Source of the DNA: Rhizophagus irregularis
Taxonomy: Eukaryota; Glomeromycota; Glomeromycetes; Glomerales; Glomeraceae
Assembly: GCF_026210795.1 (NCBI RefSeq)
Contig: NC_089429.1
Coordinates: 7,349,001-7,413,000, forward strand
Reading direction: 5' to 3'
Length of the DNA: 64,000 nt
Part shown: positions 4,130 to 61,785 of the stretch, in pieces
How the letters are laid out: each line of letters begins with the position of its first letter
Position numbering within the stretch: position 1 is the first letter of the stretch
Translations under genes and position numbers: made by a program
Notes under the pieces: model-generated
The model's database searches: none
What the model was told of the DNA's origin: nothing
Seen by the model: the letters and a program-made list of their open reading frames with translations, nothing else

Positions 4130-6850
4130 ATGGATAAAAACGCGAGAAAATCCTTCTCCAAACAGTTAATTTGGCTCCTAGAACTTCAAGCATTAGTAAT
4201 TTTCCATAGGGGAACTGGATTTACGTAAACATTTTGTGAACCGTTCGATTGTTAAAACTTTGAAATGGTCGAATGTAATATTTCTTTTAATTACCTTAAT
4301 GAGTATAACCTTTGTGAAGAATTCTTTTCTCTATTATATCAACAACATACTGGAGTCTCTCTTGATATTTTGAAAGGTATTTTTTATTCAAGGAAGAAAT
4401 GGATCTATAAGCCTTTAACATATTTACTTTCAGAATTGCGGCCATGGCAGTTGAGTTGAAAAACTCATTTATTTGTTTTTTTTGAAAAAGAGATGATTTT
4501 AATGAGTAATATTGAAATTGAAAACATGGACCTTTCAAATAACGACATTCCTATTACTTTCGATAAACGTTGATGATATTTGATATTGGAGAATTCAAAA
4601 TATAAATGGATAATAAACCTAAATATCTACCATATTATTGTGGTATGGTGCGTAAAGTTGTTGTAACTCCTACTACAAGTTATATTTTAACTCCAACCAT
4701 GGAAACTTAATAGGGTGATCCGTTATTTTCGTCATAAGAAAGATCATTTTTTACGTGTCCAATTTGTAGATGAGGCTTTGAGTAAAGTTGGTTCATCTAA
4801 TGATGATACTTCTAACCATGCTTTATGACAGAGTTTATTGTACTTTACGTGATGGTATCATTATTGGTGATAAGCACTACGAATTCTTGGCTTTCTCTGC
4901 TAGTCAATTAAGAGATCATAGTTGTTGGTTTTTTCACCAACTGGCGATTTAACTGCCGATAAGGTTAGAGATTGGATGGGAAATTTTTTAACAAATAAAA
5001 GTGTAGCAAAATGTGCTGCCCGAATGGATCAGTGTTTTTCAAGTACTCGTCAAAAGCTACCTGTTGATGACATTAAAGAAATGCCCGATATAGTTAGAAA
5101 TGGTTTCACTTTTTCTGATGGGGTAGGGAATATCTCTTTTTCATTAGCAAAGAAGATTGCTTATTAATTGGATTAAGGGTGTTTTATGTCAGCCAGCTTG
5201 TGTTGGAAGTTATCAGAGGTTCTACATTCATCTCAGCATATCTCAATCGTCAGGCGATTATATTATTGTCCGCATTAGGAACTCCTGATGAAGTATTTAT
5301 TGAATTAAAAGATTTACGAGTTAGGGAATTGGATAAAATGCTTGAAAGTGAACATACGGCATTGGATTTTCTACAAAGGTATGTTGATGAATATGGAATT
5401 TCAATCTCACTTGCTGATCTTGTTAAAGCAGGATTTTTAAGAAATAATCATCGTTATTTGATTTATTTGATGAATTTTATTTCATTATTTGATGTTAGGA
5501 GACATTAAGAAAAGGCAAAAATTCGCGTTGATAAAGTACGCGTCTTGGATGTTACCGAAATTTTACAGGAGAATCAAATTTATTGCTAGAAGTGGTGATT
5601 TAGATGGTGATGATTTCACGTATGTTATCTTTACTTTAAGTATTTAAGTTTTTTAAGTTATTAACAATTTTTTTTTTTTTGGAAAAAAAGATAATCACTT
5701 ATTGATCTTGTTAAAGCGGGATTTTTAAGAAATAATGATCGTTATTTATGAATTTTATTTCATTATTTCGTATCATGATGTTAGGAGGAGACATTTAAGA
5801 AAAAGGCAAAAATTCGCGTTGATAAAGAGGCATTCTTATTAGGCGCCTTGGATGTTGCCGAAATTTTACAAGAGAATCAAATTTATTGTTAGCGGTGGCG
5901 ATTAGATGGTGATGATTTCACGTGTGTATCTTTATTTCTCATTTTTTAAAATTTTAAGTATTTAAGTTGTTTAAGTTATTGACAATTTTTTTTTTAGAAA
6001 AAAAAAAGATAATCACTTGTTGATCTTGTTAAAGCGGAAATAATGATTCATTATTTGATGTTAGGAGACATTAAGAAAAGTCAAAAATTCGCGTTGATAA
6101 AGGGGCATTCTTATTAGGCGTCTTGGATGTTACCGAAATTTTACAGGAGAATCAAATTTATTGTTATTTAGATGATGATTTCACGAATGTATCTTTATTT
6201 ATATTGTTAAAACTTTTTAAAAAGTTTTAAGTTGTTTAAGTTATTGACAATTTTTAATTTAGTGTACTATGAATTATGAGGCTCAAAAATCAAGAATGGT
6301 TGAAAATGTAACGATGAAAGATATCAAAACATTTTTCGTAAATTATATCTTTTCCGACAACTTTGGTATGATCGAGAACGCTCATTAGCAAAAGCAGATT
6401 TTTTCAAAGTTGGTGCATTACATAGGCAATGTAAACGTCTTGTACAATTACATTCTGACGCCATAGATTTCCTAAAACGGGAACACCATCAGAATTTCCA
6501 CCTGTATTTCGTGCTAGTAAATTCACAGATTTTATGGAAAAATTGATAAACAATCTTATGAATCTCAAAAAAGTTCTTGGCATTTTATAGAGTATACCCG
6601 CAAATTATTTTAAATATAGAAACTTTTGATCAAAGAATATATGTTGATGGGATGATGCACGAAAGTTAAGACGAGAGTACAATGCAAACATAAGAGGATT
6701 AATGAAATTGAAGTAACTAATGGATACATTATGAATACTATTGTTACAAAAGTTGATAAAGAAACCTCGCAATGTAACAAAATCTGTGATGGAAGATGGA
6801 ATCTTTAATTCCAATTAATGACATTATAGAAAATCATTTGAACAAGAATT
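4130..6850 (+). pseudogene. Eukaryotic RNA-dependent RNA polymerase (RNA-silencing RdRP, QDE-1/RDP family), decayed
   Basis: Fragments in order, in changing frames, match the cellular RdRP family that makes dsRNA for RNA silencing. About 4265-4459: CEEFFSLLYQQHTGVSLD. 4720-5165: FLRVQFVDEALSKVG, LYDRVY, LRDGIIIGDKHYEFLAFSAS, LRDHSCWFFSPTGDLTA, FSDGVGNISFSLA. 5170-5520: the frame VLCQPACVGSYQ, then LNRQAIILLSALGTPDEVF. 5590-5625: SGDLDGDDF, the DxDGD metal-binding catalytic motif. 6265-6870: a C-terminal domain with DNFGMIENAHLA-like and DFLKTGTPSEFPP motifs. At least six frameshifts or stops interrupt it (TGA near 4457 and 4572, TAA at 5165, losses near 4700, 5180 and 6390), so no full product is possible. 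The family is normally over 1,000 residues; what remains covers the middle and C-terminal parts. An internal tandem triplication is described separately. The family assignment is secure. Confidence 0.88.
5408..6262 (+). repeat. Tandem triplication of the RdRP catalytic exon end plus its intron
   Basis: Three consecutive units start with CACTTxxTGATCTTGTTAAAG at 5408, 5696 and 6014 (periods 288 and 318 bp). Each has the exon part encoding the AEILQENQIYC and DGDDF region followed by an intron beginning GTRT and carrying the shared TTTAAGTTATT(A/G)ACAATTTTT 3' portion. Only after the third intron does the downstream exon (YEAQKSRMVENVTMKDIK) begin. The units have diverged by indels; unit 3 has lost part of its SGDLDG codons. 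The duplication must have occurred in a copy with introns, not a retrocopy. Confidence 0.85.
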
Positions 6851-8709
6851 TAAGGTACTCGAAGGGTTTCCACGCCACCAAAGTTTACTTTTTTACATAA
6901 ATAAGTTTTAAAATTAAAAAGATGGCACAACCAGAAAGATTAAAGAAAGATACCTATTGGAAAGTAAAAAAAGAGAAATTGATCAGTCGAAAGGAAATTA
7001 AAGAAATAAATGAAATCACGGCTGAAACTATTAGAACTCATCAAGGAATATTACGTAAAAAAAGAACAGGAATTACTGGATGTAATCGAACAAATCGTTT
7101 AATTTTAATCGTTCACAAAACATGTTAGCCGGTTTATTGTCGAAGGACTATATATACTGTATTTATGCTGATTGGTCCGCACAGAATGCGCGGCCTCCGC
7201 GTGAGCTTTACTAGCGAAGATGTGCTTTGCCTGCGCTTTGTTAGCAAACCGTTAAAAAAGAAAGTAAGGTTACAAGGGGATATTAAACCCCTAAAGTCAA
7301 TTCTAAAGTCGTCCAGTAAGTACAACCAGGAAAGTTACGTACGATTTATTTTTTTAAAAAAATCTGTTCCCAATAATTTGTGACCATTTATGGGGAAAAT
7401 TGGGATTTTCGATAACACAAAAGAAAATGTAAGCAAAAGAAATGTTTGGCAAGAATATAAAATTCAAATAGGGAATTTAAAAATTATAAGAAGGGGAAAT
7501 TTCTTCAGAGATAATGTATATGAATTCAAACGAAATTTTATTCGTTAGAATTATATAAAGATGGACCAATTTTGATCTTAAGCGTAATTCCCCTTGAATT
7601 GTAATCCGTTTATTCTTTTTTCTTGTTGATTTTTCTTAATGTATATGATACAATTATTATGATATGGAATACTAGGATAATAGGATATGTAATTATGTTT
7701 ATTATACGGTATCTTTTATCTTGTTAATAAAATTTTAATTGCCAATGCCTATGCTTTGCGCTACGATAAACTAATTCGCAATTTCTTTATTCCTAATTGA
7801 TAAACAATATTTGATGTGCTAAAAAAAATGACTTTTCTCTACTAGATGAATCGGTCACTATGATTGAAAAAAATTGCCAATATTAAAAAGAATACGCATC
7901 TTTCCTTATTGCAAGAGCATGAGAACTAATTTTATATATTCTGGTCCCCATCCTATAGATTGATATTTCCCCTCCTACATAAAATGAACGCATTTTGGTA
8001 GACAACCTAAGTCCTTATCAATTTTAGTAGGATGCAAAACTTTTGACGAATTCTCAATTTTTCCAGTACTTTCGCCATTCGGATTTTTTCACGCTAATTG
8101 TTCCATCTAACTTACAGTAACAGTAAAGAAGAGTTGATGATTTCGACGGAGAATACTCTCACGATTATCCTTAAATTAGCCTCAGCACTTTCTTTTTTTT
8201 TCAGTATCGAGTTCTTTTGGGCCAATTTGTCTTTATTTCTTTGCTGATTTTATTGAGAAATTTGGCAAGCTCCGTTTTTAATAAATTCGTGAATCTAAAG
8301 ATTAAGTTTTAAAATTAATGTATGTACTATTAAAGCATTTATTTAAGTTAAAGAAAAATTTAAACACCTACTTTGTTAGAGATACATCTAAATTTTTATT
8401 GAAATTCATTATTGTTATCAAATTTGTTTGGCTTTGAAATTATCCGGTTCGATCCAACCAGGTTAAAACACACCACAGATAATAATTCCATTACTTTGTG
8501 ACTAAACAGAAGACTTCTAAGTGGACACGTAGTTATAAAGAAGTCCTCTCGCTTCAAGGTCATAAATGCACACTCAGGGAACAGATTAAGTAATTCTTCT
8601 TTTTACTATTATGTACAGGGTTACAGCAGGGTTGTAATGAATAATTCGATAAATTCATTTTTTCTTTTTCTCATCACGACTAAAGATGGAAAGATTTGAA
8701 GTTAATATT
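6851..8709. other. Intergenic sequence with short uncertain ORFs
   Basis: 6922-7128 could encode a 68-residue, lysine-rich peptide (starts MAQPERLKKDTYWKVKK), and 7165-7383 a 72-residue peptide in a patch of unusually GC-rich DNA (7160-7250). Neither resembles a family I know, and neither has visible introns or a partner exon. The rest is AT-rich non-coding sequence. The 7160-7250 patch may come from a different source than its surroundings. Confidence 0.3.
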
Positions 8710-57741: not shown

Positions 57742-58510
57742 ATAATTGTTCGTTTTTCTTAATAATGAAAAATTTTTTTCCATAGAAAAATCTTTGAAAT
57801 AAAATGAAATAAATATACAATAAAGAATAAAATGATAAATAAAGAAAAATTAAACCAAAAAAATATAAAAGTGATTAAACGCGCTTTTAGTAAAATATCA
57901 CTTCGCGAGTTTCTTTGTCAAAAAAGACAGATATATAAAAAGGGGTGCATATTGTGATATTTGATCGTATAAGAAAATAGCACGTGATCGTATAAGAACG
58001 TTTGCGGCAAAAATAGTGCTTTGTTGATCATTTCCAAAAGGTGGACGCGTTTTTTAATTATTTTACTATTTTTAGAAGTGCAATTAGCACGTAGACGTGT
58101 TGACGTGTCGTGCAATTATAAAATCCTATAAAATCGTGATCCAGGAGTTTATTTTTTTTCGTTTTCATTGCTTTCTTTTTAACCCCAAAAAAAATTTTGA
58201 TTTTTTCTTTCACCCTCACAAAGACACAAACCTCCGAGCTTCACCTTACAAAACTTCACGAACCTCATAAAAAAACTCACAAACCTCTGAACCTCACATT
58301 ACAATACTTCAAGAACCTCAAAACCTCATTATCTCAAACCCTTAACAACCGCACCTTCGCCAAATCAATAATTATTACGTGAATATATATTTTAAAAGAA
58401 ATATCTAATACTTGGCGCCAGATTAGGAAACTTTTGTAAAGTGGTTTTATAAAGGTGAAATGAAAAAAAAACCAAAAAAAAAAAAAAACGACAAGCACTG
58501 TAAAAGTAAA
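57742..58510. other. Intergenic, CT-rich patch
   Basis: 58195-58345 contains repeated CTCACAAACCTC / AACCTCA motifs, giving a spurious 61-codon frame. No gene is supported. Confidence 0.35.
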
Positions 58511-58765
58511 AAGATATTACCTAATCCGTTGTCAGAAATTACGGTAACCATTATCGGAAAGAGTCATTATGCCTATCTACTTTCAATCATATGCGCGGAA
58601 ATTTAAAATGATATACGCTGGGCCTAATCCGCTTCCAGAAATTACGGGGGCCCCTAATCCGCTTCCAGAAATTGCGGGGGGGGAGGCCTCCTAATCCGCT
58701 TCCGGAAATTGCGGGGGGAGGCCTCCTAATCCGCTTCCAGAAATTACGGGGCGGAAATTTAAAAA
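58511..58765 (+). repeat. GC-rich tandem repeat, CTAATCCGCTTCCAGAAATT units
   Basis: At least four close units of CTAATCCGCTTCC(A/G)GAAATT followed by (A/G)CGGGG and a spacer with GGCCTC or GGCCC (58622-58750). A diverged unit lies at 58518 (CTAATCCGTTGTCAGAAATT), and partial CAGAAATTAC units continue to 58815. It is strikingly GC-rich for this window. The 128-codon ORF over it (58672-59058) is a repeat by-product. Confidence 0.85.
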
Positions 58766-59684
58766 GATGTACGTTGTGTCAACTGCGCGGGACAGGAGAT
58801 CGTTACCAGAAATTACAGTTCTACTGTAAGCAGATCATTTTATACTCTGACCCTTTCTGGGGGTATAGAAGCTTGGCAGGGGTATTACCAATTAGCGCGT
58901 CTCACGAAAAGAGGAAGATTGACTTAACTAGCATATTGATCCGCATATATTGTGTTTCATACAGGAGGGTTCATACAGGGTCAAATTACCAATTCTATTA
59001 CGAACTAGTTTGTTTATTTTTTATTTATTTCATGTTTTATTATTATTTTTTAATATAGAATCCACTAAATTATATTTGTAATAAATTATTTAATAAATAT
59101 ATATTTTATTCATTATTGTTACAAATTCAGGTTGTATATAAATATTCAAATAGCAATGCTTAATTTAATTTAAGTTACTAGTATATGAAATTCTGAATTA
59201 GCTGGAGGAACTCCATTTAATAATAGATTATTGAAGATTCAAAGTGCTATCTTTATGACGACGGAAAGACAACTAAACTAAAAAAAAAATACACGTTTCA
59301 AAACCTCAATTACTTATAACTTGAATAATTAAATTTGATCTGATTGATTCTGATTTTTTATTTTTATTTTTACTATACATATTCTTCTATCACAAGTGTT
59401 CTCTCTATCACGCGTATTCTCTCTGACATGTATTCTCTATCATTAGACCATTGATTTTAATCAGAAATGATGTTAAATTAATAAAGATCAATTAATAAAA
59501 ACGTAAATAAAATAAAATAAATAATTATTGATTTTCCCAGTTCCCCAAATTTTTAAATAAATAAAATAAATAAAAATTAAATTAAAAAAATTTCTTAATA
59601 ATAATTTGATTTTTGATTAAATATTAAATGTCCAAAGTGTTCACCACGTTCATCATTAAATCACTGATTTGTGATCCTCAAATT
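58766..59684. other. Intergenic, no gene seen
   Basis: AT-rich; TATTCTCTCT / ATCACGCGTATTCTCTCT short repeats at about 59395-59450. Probably includes the 3' flank of the SR-alpha relic on the minus strand. Confidence 0.4.
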
Positions 59685-60453
59685 TCATTCTTTAAGAAGA
59701 GAGTGAATGATATGTCCGGCTCTCATGTTCTTTGAGTCTGTATACGTTTGACCGGTTCCAACGAATAAAATCGTTGTCCGGTTGTATAAGTCATTGATAA
59801 GGCTGCCCCAACCTGTTCCAAATAAAAAATTTTAGATTAGTGTTTGATTACCATATGTTAGTCTTTAATATCATTTTCGCCAAACCTTATCATCAACTGT
59901 ATCAAATTTCGTCAAAATCATTCCATCTATATGTCTTGGATCTTGTAACCCTGAAAAATCTTTCAAAGCTTGATTAAATTTCGTGAGTTGATCAACGGCA
60001 ATGCTTCACCGACGAATATAATCTTGTCGGGATTATTCGCCGAAGCAACTAATAGTGTAAATTAAAGTTAGTTAAAAGATCGCGTAAAATATATATATAA
60101 TACGATCAGTATCATACCTTAGCTAACGCTCGCATTAATGGTTCGTTGTCCCGCCGTATCGATCAATACAACATCAAATTTGTTTATTTTGGCTAAAAAT
60201 GTAAAAATATGTCAACAACAAGTCTCCACCGTAGTCAATTTTATACATACCGTAATTAATAGCATCCTTTGCTATCCTAGCAGCATCTTTTCTATATCCA
60301 CGTTCATATAATTCAACATTTGAATTTTGACCTAAAGCATTCAAATTCCTAACATGTACTCTTAATTGTTCTACGGCACCTGATCTAAAAGTATCACATG
60401 CTGCAATAAGGACCTTTAATCCGTTTTGTAATAACCAATGATAAATTCGTGGA
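59685..60453 (-). pseudogene. SRP101: SRP receptor subunit alpha (SR-alpha) GTPase domain, damaged; C-extein of an intein
   Basis: Minus-strand exons 60453-60251, 60192-60118, 60048-59886 and 59812-59685 have GT..AG introns and TGA at 59685-59687. They encode the NG domain after the P-loop: STNL, WLLQNGLKVLIAACDTFRSG, AVEQLRVHVRNLNAL, ELYERGYRKDAARIAKDAIN, KFDVVLIDTAG (G3), NEPLMRALAK, IIFVGEAL, VDQLTKFNQALKDFSGLQD, IDGMILTKFDTVDD (G4 TKFD), VGAALSMTYTTGQ, TYTDSKNMRAGHIIHSLLKE. SR-alpha docks SRP-ribosome complexes at the ER membrane. Damage compared with the family: about 11 nt lost after STNL, about 11 nt lost in DTAG-(RMQD)-NEP, about 13 nt lost in GEAL-(VGNEA)-VDQ, and 1 nt lost in TTGQ-PILFVG. 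Each shifts the frame, so no product is possible. The P-loop first half (GxxGxGK) is not directly upstream; an intein is. Confidence 0.88.
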
Positions 60454-60556
60454 CTAATAAGAGAGGATATACATAATTAATTAATAATAAATCAAAAATA
60501 AAGCATTTGTTTTTTTTAAAAAAAATAAATAAAAAGATAGATAAAATAAGACTCAC

Positions 60557-61614
60557 ATTATGACTCACTGTCAAATCTGCTAGTAAAATGCGCTCGTTTT
60601 TATCAACCTTGAACCCATAATATGACCCAAGGCCAACTTTTTCTACTTTAAATCGCCATACCATATCGCGATTAAATTTGGATTTTTGAATACTTTCTTA
60701 CGTGAGAACTAAAGGAAGTTTTTCTAACTTATTGGCACTGATAATCGTACAACAAGATGGGGTCGTTATATTATCTGAACACTCTTTCATGTTTGCAACT
60801 ATGTTTGTAGAATAAACCCTGATAAATTTGCCAGATTACAGATTTGTTCACATCGCTCGTGAAGGGACCGGTAAACATATCTGTATTTCTGTTCTCTTCT
60901 AGTAAATGGCTACTAATGTCTAAAATTCCAGCGAGTAGAGGCAAGCGAACCTATTTGAATTAAAAAAAGTTAATTCACAATTTTTTCTCTTGAACGAATT
61001 AATTATTACATAAAACCAAAATTAATCAAACCTGATCAAGTTCATCAGTCATAATAACTGATGGCACTTTTTTAGTGTCCAAAATATCCAACATTTGAAG
61101 AAGGACATAGAACCGTTTTCAATATCATTATCGCTCATAAATGAAATTTTCCATTCTGAATCATCTAATTTAGCTTTATGTAATTCTTTCATATATCTCC
61201 AATTTAACATTTCACTGTATTGCTCTATAGCTCTTAAATCTCATTTTCATTTTCATTAACATAAATAATGGGTGATTTTACAATTCCACCACCGAACCAA
61301 GCACCAACAAGCCATGAAGCAGCCGAAATTTGAGAATTAGTAGGGTTGACTCCAAGAATTTTGCTTAAAATAACGCGAAATCTTCCTTGTACCGATTTAA
61401 AAATAACTTGATTTGGCTTAAACATAAGACAACTTCGTTGTACTTCATCTGACGCAGTCAAGAAATCTTTAATTGGTATCTCCCAAATGAAATTTGATGA
61501 TACAAGATTGGGTCTTCTCGCCATTTCTCGTATCGCTGCTCTCTTGGCTACCTCTTTTTTAGGATAATCTTCGCCGGGACCGTAATAGAAAGAATCATTC
61601 TTTTTAACGATCAT
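60557..61614 (-). pseudogene. Intein (C-terminal half with LAGLIDADG endonuclease) inserted in the SR-alpha P-loop
   Basis: Minus-strand exons 61614-61032 and 60950-60557, with a GTTTGA..AATAG intron at 60951-61031. The last 19 residues, YYGFKVDKNERILLADLTV, followed by SHN, are a textbook intein block F/G ending in His-Asn. An intron 60454-60556 (GTGAGT..TTATTAG) follows, then TCC ACG AAT = Ser-Thr-Asn, the P-loop GK^STN, giving the obligatory Ser at +1. Upstream are FIWEIPIKDFLTASDEVQ, LVGAWFGGGI (first LAGLIDADG-like motif), KKVPSVIMTDELDQV, RLPLLAGILDISSH (second motif), KLEKLPLVLT. About 326 residues remain. Blocks A and B (Cys/Ser-1, TxxH) and the N-extein are not found. Frameshifts near 61230 and 61110, at least one more near 60800, and TAA at 60698-60700 make it inactive. 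Family assignment rests on the motifs read by eye. Confidence 0.82.
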
Positions 61615-61785
61615 ATTATTCCTGATGATATTATTGATGCAAACCCCTCATTAGATTGTATTAATTTAGGAAATAATACTTCAAATATCTGTTAGGGAAA
61701 ATGGAAGGGAAAATGGAATTTCTCACGGCTTTAGTTACAACATAGATTTGATCGAAATGAATGTTCTAAATCACAAACACAGCTT

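Follow-up and report, generated by a model that had tools for sequence, protein, structure and literature searches.

A putative class 1 intein with decayed endonuclease motifs in the P-loop of the SRP receptor alpha of Rhizophagus irregularis

The window analysed here, a stretch of 64,000 nucleotides of the Rhizophagus irregularis genome (contig C1, positions 7349001-7413000; the genome comprises 146.7 Mb in 32 contigs), carries on its minus strand a broken sequence in which the end of an apparent intein is followed by the GTPase domain of the SRP receptor alpha (SRα). This raises the question whether the fungus has a working SRα gene of which the P-loop is interrupted by an intein and, if so, whether this intein would still be removed by protein splicing, whether it can still spread, and where it came from.

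The decayed window copy and the live gene

The minus strand of window positions 59370-61621 is a 5'-truncated, decayed copy of the SRα gene. It aligns to a gene on contig C6 with 93.7% identity over 2315 columns (blastn; positions 4621-6909 of locus L007), a resemblance far beyond chance, and patchy homology to the C6 stretch extends on to window position 58039. The copy starts within the intein, at about residue 511 of the precursor, leaving approximately the last three quarters of the intein, and its reading frames are broken. The intein remnant (60557-61621, residues ~511-844) consists of the endonuclease region and the C-terminal Hint part, without the N-terminal Hint part, and is matched by the R. 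irregularis database protein P0001 at C1:7410231-7410623 (93%), 7410103-7410252 (86%) and 7409545-7409817 (81%). Two LAGLIDADG-like motifs can be read in it. The first, WLVGAWFGGGI (61282-61314), has a Gly at the acid position, as seen when the intact copy is aligned to PI-SceI (WIGGG versus WIGDG), and the second, LAGILDISS (60909-60935), has a Ser at the acid position in the same alignment. Between the motifs lies an 81-nt intron (60951-61031, GTTTGA...AAATAG) which matches an 82-nt intron of the intact gene. Intein blocks F/G (60557-60622, YYGFKVDKNERILLADLTVSHN, a string found identically in the intact precursor) end in His-Asn and are followed, at the boundary of intein and C-extein, by a 103-nt intron (60454-60556, GTGAGT...TTATTAG; 85 nt in the intact gene), directly past which TCC ACG AAT TTA encodes Ser-Thr-Asn-Leu. 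The decayed C-extein continues from there with the GTPase domain (59685-60453; PF00448 at C1:7409252-7409443, 35.7 bits), all on the minus strand. Since introns have been kept, the copy must have been made from genomic DNA and not from mRNA, and to judge from its sequence it is a dead duplicate of the R. irregularis SRα gene. A sequence-only reading had described just such an intein C-terminus, joined across the 103-nt intron to Ser-Thr-Asn-Leu and the SRα GTPase domain on the minus strand of 59685-61614, with two LAGLIDADG-like motifs upstream, in a decayed copy devoid of the intein N-terminus, and this description agrees with the features found. Downstream of the duplicate, a short repeated motif (aatttctggaagcggattagg) occurs at window positions 58600-58850, and similar stretches are found past the live gene (L007 7700-7960).

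The live SRα gene is located on contig C6 at 3666579-3670593 (L007 2580-6594). Its 12 exons were delimited manually; each of the 11 introns has GT-AG borders, and the resulting translation of 1045 residues lacks internal stops and is 100% identical over its full length to P0001 (protein search), which confirms the gene model. The intein comprises residues 409-844 (436 residues) and is inserted in the P-loop, GVNGVGK^CFAKGT...TVSHN^STNLS. Pfam domains of the precursor are SRP-alpha_N, SRP54_N, Hom_end_hint (409-843) and the SRP54 GTPase (843-1043); those of the exteins (PF04086, PF02881 and PF00448) each score above cut-off and identify the host protein as SRα. The joined exteins read GVNGVGKSTNLSK, a whole conserved protein. 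The sequence-only reading had placed an intein at GK^S of the SRα P-loop; a search of the same genome for an intact gene turned up this very insertion, with the intein complete, its N-terminus included, between GVGK and STN, and the searches described below added a Hint profile match for the intact intein and its presence in three other Glomeromycotina.

Six matches to the SRP54 GTPase family were obtained in the genome, two on C2, two on C6, one in the window copy and one in a broken copy on C17. The two C2 pieces are apparently SRP54, as the SRα precursor is only 32% identical there. Besides the window copy, ten more decayed SRα copies or fragments were encountered (L032, L033 and L035-L039 on C17, L034 on C11, L040 on C18 and L041 on C4), nine of which show traces of the intein. 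The seven decayed copies on C17 are clustered within 0.51 Mb (3.38-3.89 Mb). Aligned pieces of the decayed copies are 67-91% identical to the live gene, and the C4 fragment is 99% identical over 99 bases.

Splicing residues, endonuclease decay and distribution

Class 1 inteins are characterized by a Cys or Ser at position 1, a His in block B, a penultimate His and a terminal Asn, with Cys, Ser or Thr at position +1. The SRα insert, which lies in frame between the two exteins, has this complete set (Cys409, Asn472-x-x-His475, His843, Asn844 and Ser845), and Cys1, the block B Asn-x-x-His, the His-Asn and Ser+1 are retained in all five precursors found (P0001-P0005). Its Hint fold is recognized by the Pfam model Hom_end_hint with 74.3 bits (cut-off 32.1), and it aligns along its entire length with PI-SceI (E 3.6e-16). 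When the intein part of the AlphaFold model is divided into 43 blocks of ten residues, 39 show a mean pLDDT of 75-94, with low confidence outside the intein (mean 59.4 for the whole precursor), and in a Foldseek search PI-SceI structures rank first (E 3.0e-28, TM 0.75 by target length), followed by SRα structures. The general Pfam model Intein_splicing (PF14890) has no match anywhere in the genome, so that recognition as an intein depends on Hom_end_hint, PI-SceI and the fold; other Pfam Hint models stay under their cut-offs on the SRα precursor, and NCBIfam gave a single weak match below cut-off.

The endonuclease presents a different picture. Active LAGLIDADG homing endonucleases have an acid in each motif, and the SRα intein has neither: motif 1 reads WIGGG or WISNG in the five precursors, versus WIGDG in PI-SceI, and motif 2 reads LAGILD followed by ISS, INS, ISG or IGG, versus LAGLIDSDG. 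Because both catalytic acids have been lost in every precursor seen, the intein probably no longer homes and is no longer self-spreading. Between R. irregularis and Funneliformis caledonium, identity amounts to 80.0% (68/85) in the N-terminal Hint part and 78.3% (36/46) in the C-terminal Hint part, versus 62.5% (188/301) in the endonuclease part, and to 95.5% (192/201) in the G domain of the C-extein. Selection for splicing, with none for homing, would be expected to give such a pattern of better conserved Hint parts.

Among the proteins listed (best 120 of 262 matches to the precursor, the candidates scored being those that share most words), the SRα intein occurs in R. irregularis, R. diaphanus, R. 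clarus and F. caledonium; Rhizophagus and Funneliformis both belong to the Glomeraceae. Over the whole precursor, identity to R. irregularis is 99% for strain C2, 98% for R. diaphanus, 89% for R. clarus and 77% for F. caledonium. For species other than R. irregularis these are predicted proteins, not DNA. Eight other Glomeromycotina are intein-free, with GK joined to Ser or Thr, i.e. Acaulospora colombiana, Ambispora gerdemannii, A. leptoticha, Gigaspora rosea, Diversispora eburnea, D. epigaea, Entrophospora sp. SA101 and E. candida, and no SRα protein of Glomus cerebriforme was present among the matches listed. In a broader set of 120 SRα proteins (best 120 of 5064 matches, again those sharing most words; the proteins bearing names are from fungi), the P-loop GVGK[ST] is continuous in 111, and five contain the intein. 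The nine without the standard string are P0001-P0005, P0238, P0083 (A. gerdemannii), P0240 (Dentiscutata erythropus) and P0242 (Paraglomus occultum). The odd strings of P0083 and P0242 seem to reflect flaws in the gene models; P0083, in which GK-STNL is contiguous and the odd string stands just before GK, was scored as intein-free, and P0240 and P0242 were counted neither as intein-bearing nor as intein-free. The simplest reading of this distribution is a single gain ahead of the split between Rhizophagus and Funneliformis. Taken together, the SRα insert appears to be a class 1 intein that can still splice, carries a dead endonuclease and has been inherited vertically.

Relation to the eIF5B intein and the border intron

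Hom_end_hint has two matches above cut-off in the genome, in SRα and in the gene for eIF5B, in addition to a fragment in a C17 copy; no Prp8 intein was found in the part of that gene covered by locus L048. The eIF5B gene (L031, G000:C30:1554000-1562500, minus strand 5210-2002) has an intein of 381 residues in its P-loop (GHVDTGK^CFGKGT...TVTHN^TKLLDK), the endonuclease motifs of which are broken too (WIGTD and LAGIIDSKG). Among the best 120 of 3946 matches, eIF5B inteins, some as fragments, were found in ten other named Glomeromycotina and in Mycoemilia, Dimargaris, Dispira and Coemansia. Related inteins at GK^S/T are also present in P0196, P0134, P0136 and P0138 (a GTPase with EF-Tu-type domains, and AAA ATPases), which by their sequences may represent a wider intein group favouring P-loops.

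One possible origin, which we regard as tentative and less likely than not, is that the SRα intein was copied from eIF5B in an ancestor of the Glomeraceae, with the intron at its 3' border carried along. Both inteins interrupt a GTPase P-loop at GK^S/T, those of R. irregularis are 39.9% identical (144/361), and in both genes an intron begins right after the His-Asn codons (85 nt in SRα, 60 nt in eIF5B); moreover, eIF5B inteins occur in many Glomeromycotina and the SRα intein, among the matches listed, only in Rhizophagus and Funneliformis. The family trees, however, do not favour this origin. In a tree of 39 inteins, a split supported at 100/100 sets those of SRα, fungal eIF5B and two AAA ATPases (P0134 and P0136) apart from 17 others. 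Yet the eIF5B inteins of Glomeromycotina form a clade without SRα in the main tree (100/98) as well as in trees of the Hint parts (100/99) or the endonuclease part (100/100) only. The main tree left out the eIF5B fragments of Scutellospora, Racocetra, Glomus cerebriforme and Gigaspora and the near-duplicate P0003, and the two partial trees additionally left out F. geosporum copy 2. The neighbours of SRα differ between trees: in the Hint-only tree it stands, weakly supported, beside the eIF5B inteins of Mycoemilia, Dispira and Dimargaris (75/81), and it has another position when the endonuclease part alone is used. When grouping of SRα with Glomeromycotina eIF5B was forced it was not rejected (p-AU 0.093 for the main tree, 0.060 and 0.149 in the Hint-only/endonuclease-only analysis), yet it was not favoured either. 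Furthermore, in pairwise comparison the R. irregularis SRα intein scores highest, outside SRα, with the AAA ATPase inteins (P0136, P0134) and not with eIF5B, and the two border introns have no clear similarity by eye. Descent of the SRα intein from within the Glomeromycotina eIF5B clade is thus not supported by the trees. We consider that it would have arrived before Rhizophagus and Funneliformis separated, from a P-loop intein lineage that is also represented in fungal eIF5B.

The border intron itself is a puzzle. If introns were placed at random, the chance of one falling on the exact border would be approximately 0.35% for SRα and 0.18% for the modelled part of eIF5B. Traces of the SRα border intron are preserved in diverged C17 copies, with the donor side in L033, L036 and L037 and both ends in L033. 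P0122, a metagenome ORF with an eIF5B intein that is 75% identical to that of R. irregularis and presumably stems from a related fungus, continues after His-Asn with Val-Lys-Tyr-Lys, as would be expected if a GT donor followed His-Asn there too. SRα has a further intron just 11 nt before the start of the intein (GVNG|VGK). Had an ancestor without the intein contained both introns, the exon between them would have measured 11 nt, and the border intron therefore probably came with the intein or after it. A far more speculative and unlikely extension is that, in arbuscular mycorrhizal fungi, intein and border intron form a compound unit that moves from one P-loop GTPase gene to another and is removed at one and the same border by RNA splicing followed by protein splicing. 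The endonuclease being dead, SRα splicing might then have turned into a post-translational checkpoint tying ER targeting, and thereby secretion while roots are colonised, to the state of the cell.

Probable protein splicing in the live gene and comparison with known inteins

We estimate the probability at roughly nine in ten that the P-loop of the live SRα holds a class 1 intein which is spliced from the 1045-residue precursor and of which the endonuclease is dead; as regards splicing, this estimate is drawn from sequence. The C6 gene would be transcribed, freed of its introns at the RNA level and translated into a precursor whose P-loop, divided between Lys408 and Ser845, should not bind GTP. 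After folding of the intein, Cys409 and Ser845 would carry out the acyl shift and transesterification, and Asn844, aided by His843, would cyclise, such that the 436-residue intein is released and GVGK and STNL are joined in a receptor of 609 residues. The intein probably persists because nothing but its exact deletion would leave a working P-loop.

Two alternatives to protein splicing both appear very improbable. According to the first, the insert is excised from the RNA as an intron and its open reading frame is a relic, in line with the introns found within the intein as well as at its 3' border and with the annotation of P0238 (strain DAOM 197198w), which takes the insert out as an intron. 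This model, however, reads GVNDLTSTNL, in which the P-loop lysine is lost, and there is no GT-AG placement that reunites GVGK with STNL, the two equivalent placements at the boundaries being TG-AG and GT-GT. Given these boundaries and the destroyed P-loop of the P0238 model, removal at the RNA level was rejected; the maintenance of frame and splicing residues across four species and the better conservation of the Hint parts also argue against it. P0238 is best explained as a gene predictor having cut out the intein as an intron.

The second alternative, about equally hard to uphold, is that the intein has lost splicing, that the C6 gene is dead and that another receptor works in its place. The endonuclease is indeed dead and, as the ten further decayed copies or fragments attest, the SRα family does gather pseudogenes, but the C6 gene is free of internal stops across 12 exons, the other precursors are 77-99% identical to its product, with a C-extein G domain that is 95.5% identical in F. 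caledonium, and no second intact SRα gene was found among the best-scoring candidates of the genome searches. A chimera or assembly error was rejected, as the precursor is present in several database records and in four species.

With protein splicing as the preferred reading, SRα would be a candidate new host for an element of a known type. Green et al. (2018, PMC5784728) count 257 inteins from nucleus and plastids, 71 being plastid-borne, and the nuclear rows of their Table 1, seven in all, sum to 184 of the remaining 186; three are fungal eIF5B (IF2) inteins, from Chytridiomycota and Glomeromycota. R. irregularis is credited there with two inteins that are not named in the main text. As two were also found here, in eIF5B and SRα, the latter may already be present in the supplement of that study (PMC5784728). 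No SRα intein was described in the titles and abstracts listed by the literature search. The suggestion of the sequence-only reading that SRα is a new intein host gene was accordingly not contradicted by the literature search, but is left unproven by these two unnamed inteins.

SRα would add the co-translational protein-targeting pathway to the few nuclear hosts of inteins. If the C6 gene is the sole SRα gene, every receptor molecule must first be spliced, and a block in splicing should stop ER targeting. R. irregularis is an obligate plant symbiont that depends on secretion. An intein with a dead endonuclease that is common to Rhizophagus and Funneliformis also bears on how inteins persist without homing, and an intron at the exact 3' border in two GTPase genes poses a puzzle for the entry of inteins into intron-rich genes. 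In addition, P0238, in which the annotation drops the intein along with the P-loop lysine, illustrates that gene models can mishandle intein genes.

Among known systems, the fungal eIF5B inteins, as represented by the R. irregularis gene, resemble the SRα intein in their insertion at GK/T of a GTPase P-loop, in having a Hint domain with a LAGLIDADG region, and in the 3' border intron. They differ in host gene and in length (381 residues, compared to 436 for SRα), the SRα inteins form a clade of their own, and SRα has an intron inside the intein. The fungal Prp8 inteins are alike in the match of the N-terminal Hint part and in being nuclear-encoded within an essential host protein, but have another host and site, and the solved chains that were matched are short (176-214 residues). 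PI-SceI, the VMA1 intein of Saccharomyces cerevisiae, resides in a V-ATPase subunit and is active as a homing endonuclease. The SRα intein shares with it the fold over the whole length, the terminal splicing residues and the two-motif layout of the endonuclease, but is inserted in SRα and has lost both catalytic acids.
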